NCBI RefSeq assembly: GCF_003260205.1
Contig: NZ_QERF01000008.1
Location: 124,001-188,000, forward strand
From: Winogradskyella tangerina
GTDB lineage: Bacteria; Bacteroidota; Bacteroidia; Flavobacteriales; Flavobacteriaceae
Length of the DNA: 64,000 nt
Reading direction: 5' to 3'
Part shown: positions 25,711-35,719 of the stretch, one piece after another
How the letters are laid out: every line of letters begins with the position of its first letter
How positions within the stretch are numbered: position 1 is the stretch's first letter
Translations under genes and position numbers: made by a program
The notes under the pieces: generated by a model
The model's database searches: none
What the model was told of the DNA's origin: nothing
Seen by the model: the letters and a program-made list of their open reading frames with translations, nothing else

Positions 25711-25775
25711 GTATTAATATGATGACAATTTTTCAAAATGACGATAAGAAGAAAACGAATCAAATAATTTATAAA

Positions 25776-27389
25776 ATGAAAAAACTAGCCATTCCCATAG
25801 GAATTTGTATTGTCGGACTTATTCTAACTGCAGTTAGCTTTTTAGGATCGAAAAGTGGTAGTGCAGAAGACATTGATATAAGTATCGAAAAATCGGCATT
25901 CATAATGCCAGCTGCTCACAGGGTGTATTCTAACCCTGATGCTTTAGATGGAAAATACTATTTGTTCAAAGCTAAAATCACCAATAATTCTTCAAAAACT
26001 CTCGAGGACGTCACCGTTAAATATCGCGTCCCTGATTATATTGACTGGACCGAATTAACGGTTTCTGGTGAAATGTTTCCTGGTCAGACTTTAGTAGTAC
26101 CATGTTATCCTAAGTTTGAAAATGATATTACTGAAAAAACTACCGAATCTGTAGAAAAGGCAGAAATTGAGATCTCATGGGATGATGCTGAAGAAGACGA
26201 TATCATTGAAGAGGACTTCACATTTAAACTAACCAACAGAAATGAATATGTCTACACAGGAATTAAATCTGAAGAGATCAGCTCTTGGGCAGATATGTAC
26301 GATAACGATGCACTTATTGCTTGCTTTGTTACTCCAAACGATCCTGTGGTAAAATACTACACACAAAATCTACAGGAGAAATTATTAAAGGGTGAAGCTG
26401 CTTCGGTGACTCGTAAACCCGAAGATGCCGTTCGTTTTTTAGGTGGTATTTACGAAGCAACTCGTAAATCGCACATGGTATATAGCGGTACCAAAGGAAT
26501 TCCGAAATCAACTGAAGACGTACAGAGTATTGTACAGCAGGTGCGATTGCCTCGTGAAGTCATCACCGGAAATACTGGTCTTTGTATAGAACTTAGTGTT
26601 CTTTACGCCAGCGTGCTTTCTGCTGCCGGTATAGACCCGATCATTTACATGGTTCCTGGACATGCTTACCCTGGATTTAGAATGAATGGTCAATACTATG
26701 CCATTGAAGCTACTGGAATTGGCGGCGAAGGATTAGGAAATATTATGAGTGCAGAAGAAGCTTTTCAACAGGGGCAGAAACAGTTACAAGAATTTATTGA
26801 GCGATCTCAAGCAGGAGACCCAAGATATACTATTGTAGATATTCATAATGTGAATTCTCAAGGTGTAACTTCAATGGACCTGAAAGACAATGATTTTATG
26901 CGAAAGAAAGTAGATGATATTGTTGCGTCATGGTCTGGTGGACGCCAAGTATCACCTAACCAAGGCGGTGGAAATAACATTAGAATTCCTGAAAATAACC
27001 TTCGTACTGGAAATCCATTATCATTCACTATCCCTTCCGGATGGTCAACGATGATGAGTCCGGTTCCTCAAATGCCAATAGTAACTGCACAGGTTATAGC
27101 GCCAGATCAAATGACTACGGTAACTATTTATGATATTCCTGTATCTAATGCCGAACAAGGAATGGCAACCATCAATCAATACTTTTCTGGTTTCGGAATG
27201 CAAATGCAATATCAAGTTAATGGCAACGCTGTAGCAGGACAAACCTATTCTGCTAATGGTACTTTCAACTGGATTGGCAAAGCCATCAGGCGTCAGGGCG
27301 AAATACGAATAGTTGCGGTCGGCGCACCAGATTATTTGTACAATCAGAATTCAGGAATAATAAATCAAGTCTATAACAGTATCAGATAA
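25776..27389 (+). CDS. Transglutaminase-like domain protein, membrane-anchored
   Basis: A 537-residue protein if started at ATG 25776 (MKKLAIPIGIC), which places a TM or signal helix at the N-terminus; an in-frame ATG at 25719 would add 19 charged residues. After a beta-rich region, a transglutaminase-like core shows the Cys in GNTGLCIELSVLYA, the His in VPGHAYPGF and an acidic partner in QYYAIEATG, so a Cys-His-Glu/Asp site may be intact. The C-terminal ~120 residues form another beta domain. It is probably periplasmic; a protease or cross-linking role is possible. The next gene starts 10 bases later. Confidence 0.83.
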   Translation: MKKLAIPIGICIVGLILTAVSFLGSKSGSAEDIDISIEKSAFIMPAAHRVYSNPDALDGKYYLFKAKITNNSSKTLEDVTVKYRVPDYIDWTELTVSGEMFPGQTLVVPCYPKFENDITEKTTESVEKAEIEISWDDAEEDDIIEEDFTFKLTNRNEYVYTGIKSEEISSWADMYDNDALIACFVTPNDPVVKYYTQNLQEKLLKGEAASVTRKPEDAVRFLGGIYEATRKSHMVYSGTKGIPKSTEDVQSIVQQVRLPREVITGNTGLCIELSVLYASVLSAAGIDPIIYMVPGHAYPGFRMNGQYYAIEATGIGGEGLGNIMSAEEAFQQGQKQLQEFIERSQAGDPRYTIVDIHNVNSQGVTSMDLKDNDFMRKKVDDIVASWSGGRQVSPNQGGGNNIRIPENNLRTGNPLSFTIPSGWSTMMSPVPQMPIVTAQVIAPDQMTTVTIYDIPVSNAEQGMATINQYFSGFGMQMQYQVNGNAVAGQTYSANGTFNWIGKAIRRQGEIRIVAVGAPDYLYNQNSGIINQVYNSIR

Positions 27390-27399
27390 AATTAAAAAA

Positions 27400-28014
27400 A
27401 TGAAAACTATAAAAACACTCATAGCCGCATGCGCACTTATGTTATGCTTTAATATCGGTGCTCAATCCCAACAAAAAATAGAAATGCGAATAGATTCTAT
27501 TGGCAATGCAAAACTTACGGTATCCATGAACATGAACGCCCAACAATGGCAAGTATGGAATAGTAACTACGGAAATAATCCTTCGGCATTGAAACGTGAT
27601 ATCGAACGTTCCATGCCGGCTTATTTCCTGGATGATTTCAAACTAGAAAAAGATGATATGAATCGCTCTTTCAATTTAAGCCTTAACGCTTATGGTGTAT
27701 GTGAGATCAATAAGCGTGGAAAGTGGATCGTTGACACTGACCAGAAAAATGCACAATTAACAGAATTAACAGATCATAAATACATGCTTGTCAGCAGTCC
27801 GCCAGAATACGGCGGAAACTTACAACAGACCTTTATTATTGAATTACCGAAGGATGCTAAAGGAATTAAAATAGATAAAGATGCTTATGGCAAATCTGTT
27901 TTTGAATTTGATATGGACGCGCCTTCTTCAGGATTTAATTTCATGCGATGGGCCGGTATTTTCCTTATCGTTATTGGCGGTGGATTGGCAGGAAAAGACT
28001 TATTAAAAAAGTAA
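27400..28014 (+). CDS. Exported protein with C-terminal TM helix, unknown function
   Basis: A 204-residue protein with a signal peptide (about 1-21, ending NIGAQS) and a C-terminal TM helix (about 183-200, WAGIFLIVIGGGLAG) ending in two lysines, so the ~160-residue middle domain is predicted periplasmic and anchored. The middle has SIGNAKLTVSMNMNAQQW. No family is recognised. It sits 10 bases after the transglutaminase-like gene and may work with it. Confidence 0.7.
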   Translation: MKTIKTLIAACALMLCFNIGAQSQQKIEMRIDSIGNAKLTVSMNMNAQQWQVWNSNYGNNPSALKRDIERSMPAYFLDDFKLEKDDMNRSFNLSLNAYGVCEINKRGKWIVDTDQKNAQLTELTDHKYMLVSSPPEYGGNLQQTFIIELPKDAKGIKIDKDAYGKSVFEFDMDAPSSGFNFMRWAGIFLIVIGGGLAGKDLLKK

Positions 28015-28109: not shown

Positions 28110-28688
28110 ATGAGGGAAGTATACAAAGTTGATCACAGACTACAGATTGTTGGTGCCATCAAGCGAAATGATTCTGCCACGCTTCAACGGATATATTCTG
28201 GTAATTATCCAAAGGTAGAGGCGCTCATTCTCAAAAATAGTGGCACCAAAGATCATGCAAAAGATATTTTCCAAGAAGCCTTTCTAGCCGTTTGGCAAAA
28301 TGTAAAACAAGATAAGTTTATTCCGCAGAGCGAATCCTCAATAAATGGTTATCTGTACACTATTGCAAAAAATAAGTGGATGGATGTGTTGCGCTCACAG
28401 GGCTTTAAAAAAACCATCACTGCTACCCAATTAGCTCATTTTGAAATAAAAGATGAAGAAAATAATGGTATTGATGATGACATTTTAAAAGATGAACGAT
28501 TAGAAGATGTAATGCTAGCCTTTAAGAATCTGGGCGACGCATGCCAACGCTTACTGCGTATGTTTTATTTTGAAAAGATGTCGATGAATCTCATTGCTGA
28601 GGAATTAAATTTAGATTCGGCTTCAACTCGAAACAAAAAATACAGATGTATGCAAAAGTTAAGACAATTAGCCCTTAAAAAAAATTAA
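28110..28688 (+). CDS. ECF-type RNA polymerase sigma factor
   Basis: A 192-residue sigma-70 family protein with region 2 (about 20-95: AKDIFQEAFLAVWQNV, then GYLYTIAKNKWMDVLRSQG) and region 4 (about 130-188: ACQRLLRMFYFEKMSMNLIAEELNL, ending QKLRQLAL). It lacks regions 1 and 3, as in ECF sigmas. The next gene starts 5 bases downstream and encodes a membrane protein with an N-terminal anti-sigma-like segment, followed by an exported CHAT protein. It probably switches on an envelope response including this operon, but its target promoters are not known. Confidence 0.9.
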   Translation: MREVYKVDHRLQIVGAIKRNDSATLQRIYSGNYPKVEALILKNSGTKDHAKDIFQEAFLAVWQNVKQDKFIPQSESSINGYLYTIAKNKWMDVLRSQGFKKTITATQLAHFEIKDEENNGIDDDILKDERLEDVMLAFKNLGDACQRLLRMFYFEKMSMNLIAEELNLDSASTRNKKYRCMQKLRQLALKKN

Positions 28689-28693
28689 TAGCA

Positions 28694-29431
28694 ATGGACG
28701 ACTTACATCACATATCACAAGAAGAATTCGAGAGGATCGAGGCTTATCTCAATGGATCACTATCGGAAGAAGACCTTTCTTCATTTGAAGTCCAACTTAA
28801 AAACGAAGAAGGTTTTGCTTCAAAAGTTGAAGACATTAAAACTGTTCTCATCGGAATTGAAACACAGTCGCTGAAAGCGCAGTTAGATCGCTTTCATGAC
28901 GAGGCGATAAACAATTCAACCAATGCGTCCAACTCAGAAACCAAAGTAAGGTCACTGAATTTAAGAAGAATTGCCGTTGCAGCTGCCTTAATTATTGCTG
29001 CGGGTAGTTTTTGGTTTTTAACTGGTAATTCAAACGAGCGACTGTATGCAAAATACTATTCACCAGATCCAGGATTACCAACAACGATGGGTGATACCGA
29101 CAACTATGAGTTTTATGAAGCAATGGTTTCTTACAAACAAGGTAATTATAAGGACGCACTTAAAACTTGGAAAGATCAGCTCAATACAAAAACTAAAAAC
29201 GATACCTTAAATTACTTTGTTGGGTCTGCTTTATTGGCCTCAAAACAAGAGAAAGAGGCACTGTCATACTTGTTAGAAGTTACTAAACAAGACCATTCAA
29301 CATTTAAAAACGAAGCACTTTACTATCTCGGGCTGGCGTATTTAAAGTCAGATAATAAAGAAAAGGCTATCGAATACCTTAAAAAATCTAATGCTACCCA
29401 GGCAAAAGACCTACTCAACAAACTAGATTAA
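28694..29431 (+). CDS. Anti-sigma-like membrane protein with periplasmic TPRs
   Basis: A 245-residue bitopic protein. The N-terminal ~90 residues are cytoplasmic; they contain a helical EEFERIEAYLNGSLSEEDL segment resembling the zinc-less anti-sigma domains of Bacteroidota. One TM helix follows (about 92-110), then periplasmic TPR-like repeats (about 137-235: YEFYEAMVSYKQGNYKDAL; NEALYYLGLAYLKSDNKEKAI). The layout fits a membrane receptor that holds the upstream sigma factor and senses through its TPR domain. Lies 5 bases after the sigma gene and 2 bases before the CHAT gene. Confidence 0.8.
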   Translation: MDDLHHISQEEFERIEAYLNGSLSEEDLSSFEVQLKNEEGFASKVEDIKTVLIGIETQSLKAQLDRFHDEAINNSTNASNSETKVRSLNLRRIAVAAALIIAAGSFWFLTGNSNERLYAKYYSPDPGLPTTMGDTDNYEFYEAMVSYKQGNYKDALKTWKDQLNTKTKNDTLNYFVGSALLASKQEKEALSYLLEVTKQDHSTFKNEALYYLGLAYLKSDNKEKAIEYLKKSNATQAKDLLNKLD

Positions 29432-29433
29432 CC

Positions 29434-32400
29434 ATGCAAACGTCTAGAATTATAGCACTTTTACTCTTAGTATTAGTGAGTACAACTAATGTTTTGTTTT
29501 CTCAAAACACCAATGAGGCAAATCTCAAAACATTAGATGGTTACCTCAAGGATAAAAATTATACTAAAGCTCAGCAATTTGCCAAAGCGCAAATAGATTC
29601 GCTTATAGCAATAGAAAAATACTATGAGGTGACCGATTATGTTTATTATCTCGGCCAAATCGAATCAAAAGTTAACAACACGAGTTCAGCAATAAATGTC
29701 ATCCAAGCTTTCGAAAAAAAGTTTGAATCGCTTACTACAAATAAAAAAGCGCTTAGGCAATTAGCCTTAGAAACAGGATCATTTTATGAGTCTATCGGCG
29801 ATTCTGAAACGGCAAAAAACTATAACCTGAAAGCTTTAGAAATTACGAAGCAAATGCCTGAAGCTACGGGGAAAGACCGAGCCCTAATTGAAAGTAATCT
29901 CGGTGTATTCTATTCGCGCTTAGGTGATATAACTACCGCAATAAAATATCATAAACAAGGACTTAAATCCTTGCAGAGTGATACAACCTCAACTGCAGAT
30001 AGTTATTATATTTCTTATAATTCTTTAGGCGGAATGATGTGGTATTCGTCGAAGTTCGACAGTGCTATTTATTATTACAAGAAAGCTGATAAAACGCTAA
30101 AATCGCTTGAACAAACACCTTGGAATAAATTCTATAGATGTGCATCCTTAAACAATAATATTGCGGGTATTTATAGTATTCAAGGCGATGTTGATGCCTC
30201 AATAGACGCCATGCAAACGACGGTTAAAAACCTTAATGCCTTTTTAAAAGAAGATATTAGTGATGTTAGGCGCACCTATGCTCAGGAATTTTTGTTTCAG
30301 GCTATAGAAAATTATGCCGGACTCTATAAAGACATCGGTGATTATAAAAAAGCAAAACAATTGCTGAGCTATGCCTTCCAACTAAAAAATAAGAATCTAG
30401 CACCTGAAAGTCCGGAAATTGCAAAAGGAAAGGTTTTACTTGGTCAAATTGAAGTTTCTCTGAGAAATTACGCACTGGCCGATAGTCTTTTGAATGAAGG
30501 CATTAAAGACTTTGAAAATAAAAATGGTGATTATGGTTATTGGCTGGCAGACGCCTATTACAATAAAGCCTTAGTGCATTCCGATTTAGGCAATCTCGAT
30601 TTAGCCAAATCTAACTATGCAAAGGCCGAGGCCTACTATAAAGCGTCGCTTGGCAACTATTATGATGAGCTGTATCTAGACTTCACAGTTAACGCCTCAA
30701 ACTTTTATTCTGAAACTGGTGATAAAGACAAGGCGCTTTCAATGGCAAATGATGCCTTAAATTATATAAAAGCAAACCAAGGTGAAAAGACCCTTCTTGA
30801 ATACTATCAGGAATTGAATTTAGCGGACATTTATTATCAGAATGGAGACTACCAAAACGCCCTGAAATACTGTGACAGAGCTATAGAATTGATTAATTCA
30901 AACGAATTTATTGAGAAGAGTCAATTAAATTCACTTCGTGTTGAAAGTAATAAAGTAAGTGCTATACTTCTGAAAGTAAAAACAAATCTGAAACTGACTA
31001 CCACCAGAAATGAGGCATTCTTAAAAGCGCAACTTAAAGAACTTGACGATGCGATTAAGTTACTTGAAAATCAGAAATCTGTTATTGCAAATGATAATTC
31101 AACTGCGATAATAATTCAGGATAACATTGGTGTTTTCAAGGTTGCAAAAGAATTAAACCTAGAGCTATTCAAACTTACAAATAAAGAAGACTTTCTTAGC
31201 GATTTACTCGGTTATCATGAGTCGATGATCTATCATAAAATTCGTAGTCGACTTAATTCAAAATCTTCTGAATTAACTGCCAATTTACCTCAGGAGATTT
31301 TAGATAGAGAAAAGGCGCTAAAAGATCAACTTAATGCTTACCTCGAGGAAGATTCGAATTTTGAAATTTACATTGAAAATGAAAAAAAATGGTTAGACTT
31401 TCTTGAAGAATTAAAACGAAACCATCCCAACTATTACGAGCTCCGATATGCTTCAATATCGCAATCGTTAAAAGATCTAAAGCGTAAAATACCAGCTTCT
31501 TCAACTTTGGTTAGATACTTGTACATTAACGAGGCGCTGCATGCTTTCGTTATAGATGCTAAATCCATCAAAATGGTTGAGATCAACACCGAGAATCTTG
31601 CCACTAGAATTGCCGAACTCAACAATAAAACAGAGCTTATTACACCTACATTTAAGCTTCAATCCGACATTTATAATCAACTTTGGAAACCCATAGAAGC
31701 GCTCATAACCAATGAACACCTTATAATTATACCAGACAAGGAACTATTCAATCTTAGTTTTGAATTACTAACGGATAAAGTCTGTAGCGATTTTAAAGAA
31801 ATGGGTAGCAATAGTCTTCTATCGAAGTATAATATTTCCTATAATTATAGCTTATTCCTAATTGATAAAAATAGCCAGCCAATAGGCTACGACTCTAACT
31901 TCATTGGATTTGCTCCTGAATTTAGTGATGAAATGAAAACCAGCTACAAAATCGCAATAAAAGATTCTGTAGATATGGATTACACTTATTTGAAATTATT
32001 ACCACAGCCCTTTGCCAAACAATTGACGCAGAGTTATTCGAAGTTGTTTAACGGTAATTCATTCCTTAATGAAAATGCTTCCAAAAGTGTGTTTACTCAA
32101 AATGCCAAGGAGCACAAAATTATTCACATCGGTACCCATGCTGAATCTGATAATATCACACCAGAGTTTTCAAGATTGATTTTCGCTAAAAGCGCAGAAG
32201 ATGAGAATAATTCGCTTTATACTTACGAGATTTACAATCAGAATTTAGCCTCTAATTTGGCCATACTAACTGCATGCGAAACAGGCAAACCAAGCTATCA
32301 ACCAGGTGAAGGTATGATCTCATTGGCGCATGCTTTTAATTATGCAGGAAGCGAAAGCATCTTAACTAGTCTTTGGAAGATCGATGAGCAGTCTAGCGCA

Positions 32401-32652
32401 AAAATTTTGGAGCATTTTTACGATAATATTTCTAAAGGATTAAATAAAGATAAGGCACTTAAAGCTGCTAAACTGAAGTATTTATCTGAAGCCGAAGGGC
32501 GAACTGCTTCACCACAATATTGGGCCGGTTTAGTATTAATTGGTGATACGGCTCCAATAGCTATAAATTCGGGTAAAAACGTGTGGTTGTGGTTACTGTT
32601 AGGTATAATTGCAGTAGCAGCCGTGATGCTAGTAATTAGAAAGCGTAAATAG
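29434..32652 (+). CDS. Exported TPR-CHAT protein
   Basis: A 1072-residue protein: signal peptide (about 1-23), a long array of TPR repeats (about 30-560), a helical linker, a C-terminal CHAT domain (about 700-1035), one TM helix (1050-1068) and a basic RKRK end. CHAT is a caspase-like (separase-like) cysteine protease fold. Both catalytic positions are filled: His902 in IHIGTHAESD and Cys948 in LTACETG. The signal peptide and terminal stop-transfer predict that the protease and TPRs are periplasmic and held in the inner membrane, unlike the cytoplasmic CHAT proteases of known defence systems. It is the third gene of the sigma operon. Confidence 0.9.
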   Translation: MQTSRIIALLLLVLVSTTNVLFSQNTNEANLKTLDGYLKDKNYTKAQQFAKAQIDSLIAIEKYYEVTDYVYYLGQIESKVNNTSSAINVIQAFEKKFESLTTNKKALRQLALETGSFYESIGDSETAKNYNLKALEITKQMPEATGKDRALIESNLGVFYSRLGDITTAIKYHKQGLKSLQSDTTSTADSYYISYNSLGGMMWYSSKFDSAIYYYKKADKTLKSLEQTPWNKFYRCASLNNNIAGIYSIQGDVDASIDAMQTTVKNLNAFLKEDISDVRRTYAQEFLFQAIENYAGLYKDIGDYKKAKQLLSYAFQLKNKNLAPESPEIAKGKVLLGQIEVSLRNYALADSLLNEGIKDFENKNGDYGYWLADAYYNKALVHSDLGNLDLAKSNYAKAEAYYKASLGNYYDELYLDFTVNASNFYSETGDKDKALSMANDALNYIKANQGEKTLLEYYQELNLADIYYQNGDYQNALKYCDRAIELINSNEFIEKSQLNSLRVESNKVSAILLKVKTNLKLTTTRNEAFLKAQLKELDDAIKLLENQKSVIANDNSTAIIIQDNIGVFKVAKELNLELFKLTNKEDFLSDLLGYHESMIYHKIRSRLNSKSSELTANLPQEILDREKALKDQLNAYLEEDSNFEIYIENEKKWLDFLEELKRNHPNYYELRYASISQSLKDLKRKIPASSTLVRYLYINEALHAFVIDAKSIKMVEINTENLATRIAELNNKTELITPTFKLQSDIYNQLWKPIEALITNEHLIIIPDKELFNLSFELLTDKVCSDFKEMGSNSLLSKYNISYNYSLFLIDKNSQPIGYDSNFIGFAPEFSDEMKTSYKIAIKDSVDMDYTYLKLLPQPFAKQLTQSYSKLFNGNSFLNENASKSVFTQNAKEHKIIHIGTHAESDNITPEFSRLIFAKSAEDENNSLYTYEIYNQNLASNLAILTACETGKPSYQPGEGMISLAHAFNYAGSESILTSLWKIDEQSSAKILEHFYDNISKGLNKDKALKAAKLKYLSEAEGRTASPQYWAGLVLIGDTAPIAINSGKNVWLWLLLGIIAVAAVMLVIRKRK

Positions 32653-33381: not shown

Positions 33382-34581
33382 TTAGCGCTTCAGAATCTTT
33401 TCAGATAGGACAACATTTGTTCCGTCTGAAATTGTGAGCATATATAGTCCATTTCGAAGCGAAACAAGATCAATAGAATTGATTAATCCTCCATTAATGA
33501 CTTGAGAAATCACTTTTCGTCCTGAAAGATCGTAAATGTCTAAATCTAATTCTGAAATCGATTCATCTTGAATATTGATGTTCAATTCTGTATTTACCGG
33601 ATTTGGATAAATATTCACGCTCGACTCGAAGAAATCATCAATACCTAAGGTTGAATTCCAGAAAGCAGATCCGAAATCGGTAGCGGTTCCAGCGAATGTA
33701 TAAGGCGAATCCCCCGAGACAAAACTATTCACATTATCCCATCGACCTGCAGTTACTGCTTGTCCAACTCTAGGTTGATTACCAGCACCCCATTGTATAT
33801 AATCGATTAATATATCAGGATCTGATGAACCAAAACTATTTGTTGTAAACAAACTAAAGCCGTCGGCTACAGGATCTACATTATAAGCTACTGAAACATC
33901 CTCACCAGGAGCAAGATTTGTTGAGCCTACAGCTGCATTACTTACTTGCACATAACTACCTGGGCCAAGACATAACCAGTAAGATCCTATATCTACGGTT
34001 GTGGTTCCAAAATTTGAAAGTACAATTTCATCCGTTCCTGTATTTACAGATAAAATTCTAATAATATCTTGGGTAGAGGCCCAAAAAGCCGAACCAAAAT
34101 CGGTAGCTGTACCTGTGAAGGTATAAGGAGATTCACCCGAAACAAAATTACTTGCACTATCCCATCGACCAGCAGTTACTGCTTGTCCGACTCTAGGTTG
34201 ATTGCCTGCACCCCATTGCACATAATCGATTAAGATATTTGGATCGGAAGAACTAAAACTATTAGTTGTAAATAAGCTAAAGCCATCGGCAACAGGATCT
34301 ACATTATAGGCTACGGAAACATTCTCACCAGGAGCAAGATTGGTCGAACCTACAGCTGCATTGCTTACCTGCACATAACTTCCCGGACCGAGGCAAAGCC
34401 AATAAGAGCCTATATCTAGTGTAGCATCGCCCAGATTAATTAACGAAATTTCGTCAGTAGCTGTATTTACGCTTTCAACTCTAATAACTGCTTGTGCGTT
34501 CGCAGCAATGCCGATCATTGTACTAAAGACAATTCCTAGTACCGTTTTCAATCCTCGATTTAAAGTAATTTTACATTTCAT
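33382..34581 (-). CDS. T9SS type A sorting protein with two 140-residue repeats
   Basis: A 399-residue secreted protein: signal peptide (about 1-30, ending ANAQ), two near-identical repeats (residues 32-171 and 172-311), and a T9SS type A sorting domain (about 320-399: IYPNPVNTELNI, YDLSGRKVIS, ending SEKILKR). Each repeat has the pattern VESVNTATDEISLINLGD ... SYWLCLGPGSY ... DPNILIDYVQWGAGNQ ... AGRWD. The NLGD/NFGT-then-YWLC layout is reminiscent of lamin-tail-like beta sandwiches, which I offer only as a possibility. The next minus-strand gene upstream encodes a lipoprotein with the same repeats. Confidence 0.85.
   Translation of the reverse strand: MKCKITLNRGLKTVLGIVFSTMIGIAANAQAVIRVESVNTATDEISLINLGDATLDIGSYWLCLGPGSYVQVSNAAVGSTNLAPGENVSVAYNVDPVADGFSLFTTNSFSSSDPNILIDYVQWGAGNQPRVGQAVTAGRWDSASNFVSGESPYTFTGTATDFGSAFWASTQDIIRILSVNTGTDEIVLSNFGTTTVDIGSYWLCLGPGSYVQVSNAAVGSTNLAPGEDVSVAYNVDPVADGFSLFTTNSFGSSDPDILIDYIQWGAGNQPRVGQAVTAGRWDNVNSFVSGDSPYTFAGTATDFGSAFWNSTLGIDDFFESSVNIYPNPVNTELNINIQDESISELDLDIYDLSGRKVISQVINGGLINSIDLVSLRNGLYMLTISDGTNVVLSEKILKR
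33649..34068 (-). repeat. Tandem 420-bp coding repeat, copy 2
   Basis: Encodes residues 172-311 of the type A sorting protein. It is nearly identical in protein and very similar in DNA to the adjoining copy 1, implying a recent internal duplication or gene conversion. Confidence 0.8.
34069..34488 (-). repeat. Tandem 420-bp coding repeat, copy 1
   Basis: Encodes residues 32-171 of the type A sorting protein. Directly adjoins copy 2 in the same frame, with exact 420-base periodicity. Confidence 0.8.
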
Positions 34582-34619
34582 TGTTTTATGTATTATGGTT
34601 AATTTATATTGGTTAAGTA

Positions 34620-34645
34620 CTGCCCGACACTAGCATGTCGGGCAG
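34620..34645. repeat. Strong GC-rich hairpin (REP-like)
   Basis: A perfect 10-bp stem CTGCCCGACA / TGTCGGGCAG with a 6-base loop CTAGCA, much richer in GC than its surroundings and without a T run. It lies between the two repeat-protein genes. It may be a dispersed palindromic repeat or an mRNA 3'-end stabiliser. Confidence 0.55.
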
Positions 34646-34777
34646 ACTCTAGCTAACTAATCCCCTAAATGATTAGCTAAGATTTATTTCTAAATCATTT
34701 ACATTGAATAAGTAGGTTGTTTATTGCAGATTTGAGAAAAGGGGCTCCATTTCTAAGCAATAGTTTTTCACAGCAAT

Positions 34778-35719
34778 TTATTCCCAAAATGTCACCCCTA
34801 TATCTGCAGCATTTCCATTAAAGCGGTAAGGCGATGCGCCTTGCACAAAGTTAGTTTCACTATCCCAGCGCCCCGCTTGTACAGCCTGATTTACTCTATC
34901 CTGATTTGCTCCTCCGTATTGCATATAGTCTAGTAAAACCTCAGGATCTGTAGAACCGAAAGTATTTGTTGCGAATATTCCAACGCCTTCAGCCGTACCT
35001 AAATTATAGGTAATACTCACCGTCTGATTTGGCGCAAGATCTGTAGTACCGCTAGCAATATTTGATATTTGCTCATAATTACCCGGACCAAGACATAACC
35101 AGTAGTTTCCAACATTTACACTCACATTTCCGAAGTTAGACAATTCAATTTCATTGGTCGTTGTATTAACTTCAGTAATGCGCACTACTCTCGATTCGAT
35201 AAATGTAGATTCCCAAAAACCCGATCCAAACTGATCGGCTGTACCTGTAAAGGTGTAGGGCGAACCTCCATCTATAAAGTTAGCTTCATTGTCCCAACGA
35301 CCAGCAATTACTGCATTTTCAACACGCACCTGATTTGGCGCACCATATTGAATATAATCTAATAAAACCTCAGGATCTGTTGATGTAAAGGTATTAGTGG
35401 TAAAAAGTAAAATTCCTTCGGCCGCTTCATTTAATTCATAATTTAAAATGACGCGTTGATTTGGTGCTAAATTAGTTGAACCCACAGCAATATCACCTAC
35501 ACGAGGATATCTACCAGGTCCGAGGCATAAATAATAGTCCGCAACATTAACTGTTGAATTACCAAGGTTTAATAATTCAATCTGATTAGTAATAGCATTA
35601 ACACTTAATAATCGAACCACACTCGATTCTGGAGTTGGATCATTATTGTAAGAATCATCATCTGTACTACAGCTGAAAAATCCTAAGCTAATTAGAAGTA
35701 ATAAAAAAATCTTTTTCAT
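34778..35719 (-). CDS. Lipoprotein with two repeats, paralogue of the downstream T9SS protein
   Basis: A 313-residue lipoprotein (lipobox GFFSC, Cys17) followed by an Asp-rich spacer and two ~140-residue repeats of the same kind as in the downstream protein (VVRLLSVNAITNQIELLNLGN ... YYLCLGPGRY ... DPEVLLDYIQYGAPNQ ... AGRWD). It ends right after the second repeat (DIGVTFWE) and has no T9SS sorting domain, so it reaches the membrane by the Lol/SPII route instead. The repeats within it differ more than those in the T9SS protein. Function unknown; likely surface binding. Confidence 0.8.
   Translation of the reverse strand: MKKIFLLLLISLGFFSCSTDDDSYNNDPTPESSVVRLLSVNAITNQIELLNLGNSTVNVADYYLCLGPGRYPRVGDIAVGSTNLAPNQRVILNYELNEAAEGILLFTTNTFTSTDPEVLLDYIQYGAPNQVRVENAVIAGRWDNEANFIDGGSPYTFTGTADQFGSGFWESTFIESRVVRITEVNTTTNEIELSNFGNVSVNVGNYWLCLGPGNYEQISNIASGTTDLAPNQTVSITYNLGTAEGVGIFATNTFGSTDPEVLLDYMQYGGANQDRVNQAVQAGRWDSETNFVQGASPYRFNGNAADIGVTFWE

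Follow-up and report, generated by a model that had tools for sequence, protein, structure and literature searches.

Csx29, the tetratricopeptide repeat (TPR)-CHAT protease of the type III-E CRISPR system Craspase, is a cytoplasmic protein. A first-pass annotation of the DNA described below had set it apart as a defence protease, which proves to be only part of its work: Csx29 cuts Csx30, an inhibitor of an extracytoplasmic function (ECF) sigma factor, and the authors of that report conclude that the cut relieves inhibition of CASP-sigma, in parallel to DegS and RseA (PMC10028731). The idea that a TPR-CHAT protease frees a sigma factor therefore has a CRISPR precedent. DdvA of Myxococcus xanthus is the anti-sigma factor of the ECF sigma factor DdvS, and the signal that inactivates it was unknown in the report that describes it (PMC4374960); DdvS controls an antiphage island in Myxococcus (PMC12288465). 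CHAT domains have thus already been tied to ECF sigma control in two forms, Csx29 and DdvA. Here we analyse a three-gene locus in a 64,000-nucleotide stretch of Winogradskyella tangerina DNA (hereafter the window, in its full length). By sequence, it encodes an ECF sigma factor, a single-pass anti-sigma protein with TPRs on the predicted periplasmic side, and a membrane-anchored TPR-CHAT protease predicted to be exported. Our full-text searches of a library of papers found no published account of an exported CHAT, sigma and anti-sigma trio, nor of an exported CHAT that forms a protein of its own, is anchored in the membrane and is paired with a distinct TPR anti-sigma in which a covarying cut site is predicted.

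The locus shares with Csx29, Csx30 and CASP-sigma a TPR-CHAT protein, an ECF-sigma inhibitor as substrate (here predicted) and a sigma gene in the locus. Csx29, however, becomes active once Cas7-11 has bound target RNA (PMC10028731), whereas the window CHAT carries a signal peptide and a C-terminal transmembrane (TM) helix, both predicted, and its anti-sigma partner is a membrane protein; these predicted export and anchoring features argue against a cytoplasmic, Cas7-11-bound protease for gene 3. DdvA is similar in that the structures 8rot and 8rw5, named 'transmembrane anti-sigma factor DdvA', contain a CHAT domain, but it holds anti-sigma and CHAT in one chain where the window has two separate open reading frames (ORFs). 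With DegS, RseA and RseP the locus shares a single-pass anti-sigma protein and a first cut in the periplasm, both predicted here, with an M50 protease available. DegS is a PDZ serine protease, unlike the predicted first protease of this locus, which would be a caspase-fold cysteine protease. Separase resembles the CHAT protein in the fold of its protease domain and in the acidic S1 residues proposed to accompany a P1 Arg (PMC4626109), as in the Arg-type relatives described below, but it is a eukaryotic cell-cycle protease with another substrate, and the window CHAT has Leu864.

The three ORFs lie on the + strand, separated by 5 and 2 bases as first annotated. Gene 1 (28110..28688, 192 aa) encodes an ECF-type sigma factor by Sigma70_r2 and TIGR02937 profiles; gene 2 (28694..29431, 245 aa), by profiles and a structure model, a single-pass membrane anti-sigma protein with predicted periplasmic TPRs; and gene 3 (29434..32652, 1072 aa), by profiles, sequence and model, the TPR-CHAT protease, predicted to be exported. 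We propose, at a probability of roughly 0.7, that they form a site-1-protease switch built on a CHAT fold, in which the exported CHAT would cut the anti-sigma stalk and free the sigma factor. The N-terminal cytoplasmic domain of the gene 2 product would hold the sigma factor, and the chain, judging from sequence and model, would cross the membrane once, with a short stalk and then a TPR domain exposed in the periplasm. The gene 3 product would be exported, its caspase-like domain lying just outside the inner membrane and anchored by the last helix. A signal would be sensed by the TPR domains; CHAT would then cut the stalk after Met132 here, and after the equivalent Arg in most relatives, as covariation suggests; and, by analogy, an M50 membrane protease and cytoplasmic proteases would complete the breakdown of the anti-sigma protein and release the sigma factor. 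The genome has one match to the M50 site-2 protease family PF02163 (E 1.3e-51); since such a match also occurs in 14 of 14 control genomes, it does not discriminate. In gene 3 about 11 residues separate the CHAT domain from the start of the C-terminal TM helix, and in gene 2 residue 132 lies about 22 residues past the TM helix; CHAT and residue 132 would therefore both be near the membrane surface.

One stalk residue gives the proposal a specific prediction. Met132 (29087..29089, + strand) is, by alignment and covariation, the predicted P1 of a cut site LPTTM/GD in the periplasmic stalk, and most relatives have Arg in its place. We drew relatives from a genus/order set of 60 genomes, the window's included, from named genomes scanned with the CHAT alignment, and from an even draw of 198 genomes of the phylum. 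Within a stalk that otherwise varies, column 132 alone is conserved (68 R, 20 M, 1 K and 1 S among 90 anti-sigmas; R 115, M 21 and K 4 among 149 once the phylum set is added), its entropy of 1.25 bits is the lowest of columns 112-149, and the residue after it is G or S in 116 of 144. The window clade has Met at this position. The gene 2 model places it in coil between a short post-membrane helix and the first TPR helix. Among the 60 phylum rows, 42 anti-sigmas have a CHAT nearby and 18 do not; a state other than R, M or K occurs once in the former group, as a gap, and 8 times in the latter (Fisher p 1e-4, kinship not corrected).

The identity of residue 132 tracks a residue of the protease. 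When each CHAT is paired with the nearest anti-sigma, all 70 partners of Arg-type anti-sigmas carry Glu at CHAT position 864 and all 22 partners of Met-type ones carry Leu or Ile there, and no other CHAT column fully separates the two groups; CHATs with no partner in the locus have Glu864 in 49 of 51 cases. The phylum set gave Glu864 in 37 of 38 Arg-type partners, Ala in the sole Met-type partner, Met and Val in the two Lys-type partners, and Ala in the partner with a gap at the site. In a weighted, background-corrected scan the pair (132, 864) came top of 92,322 anti-sigma/CHAT column pairs (z 31). The six best pairs all involve column 132, joined to CHAT 864, 985, 858, 946, 900 and 953, and three of these six CHAT columns lie within 5 residues of His902 or Cys948. 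Without the window clade the pair still ranks first, of 87,668. Agreement, defined as Arg with Glu or not-Arg with not-Glu and counting the Lys pairs L198 and L203 and the gap L212 as agreeing, reached 126/129 and 106/109, a level that 0 of 10,000 partner shuffles attained in either. A linker motif search that left the site unaligned returned 101 R/E, 22 M/not-E and 6 other combinations among 129, and the motif R[GSNADT] is present in 102 of 129 linkers compared with at most 75 in 1000 shuffles. A later locus, L284, adds a new agreement, Met with Leu. The first-pass annotation had modelled a CHAT protease that cleaves or controls the anti-sigma protein; protease-substrate covariation at the top of the scan now speaks for that model, and the cutting itself we infer. 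Since residues 132 and 864 covary most and 864 lies on a P1-recognising helix, CHAT probably cuts the anti-sigma protein after residue 132, starting sigma release.

The placement of 864 comes from the structure model. Leu864 (32023..32025, + strand), Glu in the Arg-type relatives, is the sixth residue of helix 859-871, predicted to recognise P1. The CHAT elements before His902 are strand 894-899, helix 884-890, strand 875-878, helix 859-871 and strand 821-827, which on our own reading of the model correspond to beta3, alpha2, beta2, alpha1 and beta1 of the caspase fold. In caspase-3 and gingipain the P1 side chain is bound by Arg64 and Asp163, respectively, which stand at the beginning of alpha1, and by MALT1 Asp365 from slightly further along that helix (PMC4626109); the S1 regions are given as alpha1 (or L1), L4 and L5 (PMC4357240). 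In the model, 864 sits on the helix equivalent to the P1-recognising helix of caspase, gingipain and MALT1. Glu985 (32386..32388, + strand) is the second covarying residue, being Asp in 111 of 111 partners of Arg-type anti-sigmas. Separase D2151 has been equated with K670 of the CRISPR TPR-CHAT protein (PMC9729208); on our reading of the alignment, column 985 stands four residues earlier in the same loop, and it may not be the exact equivalent of D2151. The top structural match of the CHAT model is Csx29 (7y9x_B, Z 28.4, rmsd 7.1 Å over 583 residues, several chains tied); separase 5fc2 gives Z 25.8 with an rmsd of 2.9 Å over 297 residues, and DdvA, the first Foldseek row, gives Z 20.3.

The nearness to separase brings up a different use of the same contact, which we regard as unlikely: the stalk would be a pseudosubstrate that keeps CHAT off, as securin does for separase, and signals reaching the anti-sigma protein would set free an active protease that cuts other envelope proteins. 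Covariation suggests contact and not cutting, and such a pair would covary without cleavage; separase, to which the CHAT model is close, is held by securin (PMC9729208); and CHATs without a nearby anti-sigma gene exist. The site, however, keeps Arg or Met, mostly followed by Gly or Ser, in a modelled coil, and Csx30 is cut by a CHAT. Anti-sigma proteins, moreover, are often released by cutting. We give still less credence to a scheme in which the sigma and anti-sigma pair merely controls expression of a CHAT with unrelated envelope targets, another protease cutting the stalk. The variable gene order would suit a separately transcribed regulon target: of 129 anti-sigma loci with a CHAT no more than 9 kb away, 85 have the CHAT gene on the other strand. 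This scheme leaves unexplained, however, why residue 132 tracks CHAT 864 above any other column. That shared descent and alignment alone produced the covariation, between neighbours with no protease-substrate relation, is the least probable of these accounts: the few independent switches and the non-significant tree-aware sign test fit it, as does the presence of R[GSNADT] in 57.5 of 129 shuffled linkers on average, but the first rank holds without the window clade, the motif search with the site unaligned still returns the R/E and M/not-E pairs, and its R[GSNADT] count exceeds every shuffle.

Several observations weigh against the proposed cleavage switch and its pairing rule. A tree of 139 CHAT domains built with column 864 left out shows 5 changes at 864 and 7 in the P1 class, and a tree-aware test finds 4 independent, well-supported pairs, never in the opposite direction and too few for significance. 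Exceptions to the pairing are K/E (L161), S/E (L171), K with M or V (L198, L203), R/S (L280, and L201 by the aligner) and M/E (L285 by the aligner). L172, the clearest second Met lineage, has R-S five residues before the Met. By the cut-off used, 16 of 132 linked CHATs lack a C-terminal TM helix. Finally, 45 of 86 full-length CHATs in the named loci have no sigma and anti-sigma gene within 9 kb, and some CHATs may therefore have other substrates. In a follow-up of such partnerless CHATs, for which 17 loci were chosen and 16 loci in 15 genomes searched, anti-sigma matches occurred in 15 of the 15 genomes, 14 at 1e-32 or better and one weak. The genome of one partnerless locus with Leu864 (L101) holds a Met-type anti-sigma (L282), a match also expected from kinship; that of L143 (Ala864) holds a Met-type anti-sigma (L276) and others too, and its R-type anti-sigma beside a Ser864 CHAT (L280) breaks the rule. 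As a separate observation, the Lys-type clade of L198 and L203, with Met or Val at 864, has a Glu one position earlier, possibly another S1 arrangement.

Gene 2 is modelled with a mean pLDDT (predicted local distance difference test) of 90 and a pTM (predicted template modelling score) of 0.62. Its predicted cytoplasmic anti-sigma domain (residues 1-88, 28694..28957) comprises helices 9-19, 25-37 and 39-79; the TM helix, residues 90-110 (28961..29023), is supported by sequence and model alike, the modelled helix coinciding with the hydrophobic stretch. The TPR domain (residues 138-245, 29105..29428) exceeds the Pfam cut-offs, with TPR helices at 138-244 in the model. All three lie on the + strand, and basic residues ahead of the TM helix fit, we infer, an N-terminus-in topology. 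The TM helix and TPRs first annotated for gene 2 thus stand, the periplasmic side being predicted, and the anti-sigma-like N-terminus scores poorly in the window protein but improves across the family: the anti-sigma model NF052375 matches gene 2 at E = 0.004, below its cut-off, and reaches E <= 0.05 in 18 of 33 family members, the best of them at 1.1e-6. No Pfam anti-sigma family is among the matches listed for gene 2, and we set aside a known anti-sigma fold as a candidate, since TPR or designed helical proteins fill almost all of the best 50 Foldseek rows, none of which is named anti-sigma. A sigma gene lies immediately upstream of 139 of the 149 anti-sigma family members in the fetched loci.

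The architecture first described for gene 3 is borne out, from signal peptide to C-terminal TM helix, with CHAT on the predicted non-cytoplasmic side. All of the following features are on the + strand. The predicted signal peptide covers about residues 1-23 (29434..29502; hydrophobic stretch 6-24, end judged by eye), and the TPR array, by profile and model, residues 83 to about 550 (29680..31083). The CHAT domain (PF12770, residues 745-1038, 31666..32547) scores 141.1 bits versus a cut-off of 24 and contains the catalytic His902 (32137..32139) and Cys948 (32275..32277), identified in the sequence. The catalytic pair is also present in 45 of 45 CHATs of the phylum set, whose loci were picked through the anti-sigma with no CHAT motif used. 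By sequence and model, the C-terminal TM helix spans residues 1049-1071 (32578..32646) and has basic residues at its end, which would fit a periplasm-out CHAT.

Gene 1 scores 39.4 bits with Sigma70_r2 (cut-off 24) and 74.1 bits with the ECF superfamily model TIGR02937 (cut-off 42.9); sigma region 4 is below its cut-off (17.7 versus 24.1), as is the III-E CASP-sigma model NF041236 (37.7 bits, cut-off 100). The PADLOC defence-system models returned, on this locus, a TPR model alone, for gene 3. A stretch upstream of the sigma gene is common to part of the window clade, but a genome search with the upstream-of-sigma pattern gave 7 matches versus 5 for the reversed control, and no regulon was found.

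CHAT matches at E <= 1e-20 occur in 28 of the 60 genus/order genomes, and CHAT and anti-sigma (about 1e-7 or better) occur in exactly the same 28, neither alone; 11 further genomes have an anti-sigma match through the TPR part only (E 7e-6 to 1e-3). These counts come from relatives, and a p-value is here not a measure of independent events. Close homologues, at 38-100% identity, are present in 12 of the 28, the window's genome being one; the CHAT of one of them (L046) is broken by unread bases, and two (L040, L041) have a second, tandem CHAT. Because 12 of these 12 keep sigma, anti-sigma and CHAT in the window order on one strand, and the His/Cys pair is kept in 56 of 56 CHATs of the genus/order set, the trio is beyond chance. 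The remaining CHAT rows are paralogues, mostly near a sigma and anti-sigma gene of their own, and often convergent, divergent or a few genes off. In the fetched genus/order loci, both genes lie within 9 kb of 50 of 54 full-length CHATs, and 51 of 56 CHAT rows have a sigma row within 12 kb, a count scripted on a subset of the sigma rows. A Winogradskyella metagenome-assembled genome (MAG) locus, L151, has the same CHAT domain as L053, from a genome of the window's genus.

Met-type and Arg-type modules occur together in ten genus genomes, including the window's, which has an Arg-type system on another contig (L050), and each CHAT matches its neighbour. The S1 pocket and the stalk residue change together, and parallel Met and Arg systems in one cell should therefore stay insulated; the matched neighbours in these ten genomes suggest such insulation of parallel pathways.

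Further CHATs show other arrangements. On contig C11 of the window genome, those of L048 and L049 had no sigma or anti-sigma of this kind found in their stretches; they are without a C-terminal TM helix and keep the His, the Cys and Glu at column 864. The tandem CHATs of L040, L041, L108 and L290 share one anti-sigma gene, and every copy has the catalytic pair and the same 864 residue within its locus.

The first-pass annotation had put weight on conservation of the trio elsewhere, and the trio and rearranged forms of it are widespread. The scan of named genomes yielded 79 loci, almost every one of them from Bacteroidota broadly defined (Flavobacteriaceae, Saprospiraceae, Bacteroidales, Cyclobacteriaceae, Balneolaceae and others, with one MAG labelled Bacillota); its pattern includes the catalytic Cys, so conservation of the Cys is uninformative there. 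Both partners lie within 9 kb for 41 of the 86 full-length CHATs of this set. The even draw gave anti-sigma matches in 45 of 198 genomes at E <= 1e-10, some through the TPR part only, and 42 of the 60 anti-sigma rows, from 60 fetched loci, have a CHAT in the stretch. Related gene sets are thus found widely in Bacteroidota.

Neighbouring genes vary. The upstream genes at 25719-28014 are not counted as parts of the system; they stand beside the trio in 5 of the 12 close homologues, the window included. Among them, a 556-aa protein at 25719-27389, whose homologue adjoins the trio in those 5, aligns with the initial part of the NCBIfam model 'anti-phage protein ProA' (E 9.5e-20, 69.7 bits, cut-off 1500). 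At 33382-35719 on the - strand lie two adjacent proteins made of closely similar internal repeats, the first with an apparent type IX secretion tail at its end, both features judged by eye. Accessory genes were tried as a functional clue and gave none that could be read: ten neighbour proteins from four related loci comprised two with type IX secretion tails (one with leucine-rich repeats), one PKD-domain protein, one VKOR-thioredoxin protein and others unrelated.

For the phylum, we lean towards a picture in which Bacteroidota have widespread periplasmic, membrane-anchored caspase-fold site-1 proteases with their own TPR anti-sigmas, a co-switching P1/S1 code (Arg-Glu to Met-Leu/Ile/Ala) keeping the pathways apart. 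If the proposed switch is true, the cutting of an anti-sigma protein by a TPR-CHAT protease would move from one CRISPR subtype to widespread envelope signalling, and the scissile bond and specificity residues would be named. The finding gives context for the CHAT domain of DdvA, whose sigma factor controls an antiphage island. It would also suggest a role for many unassigned exported CHAT proteins of Bacteroidota, through which events outside the inner membrane could change gene expression.

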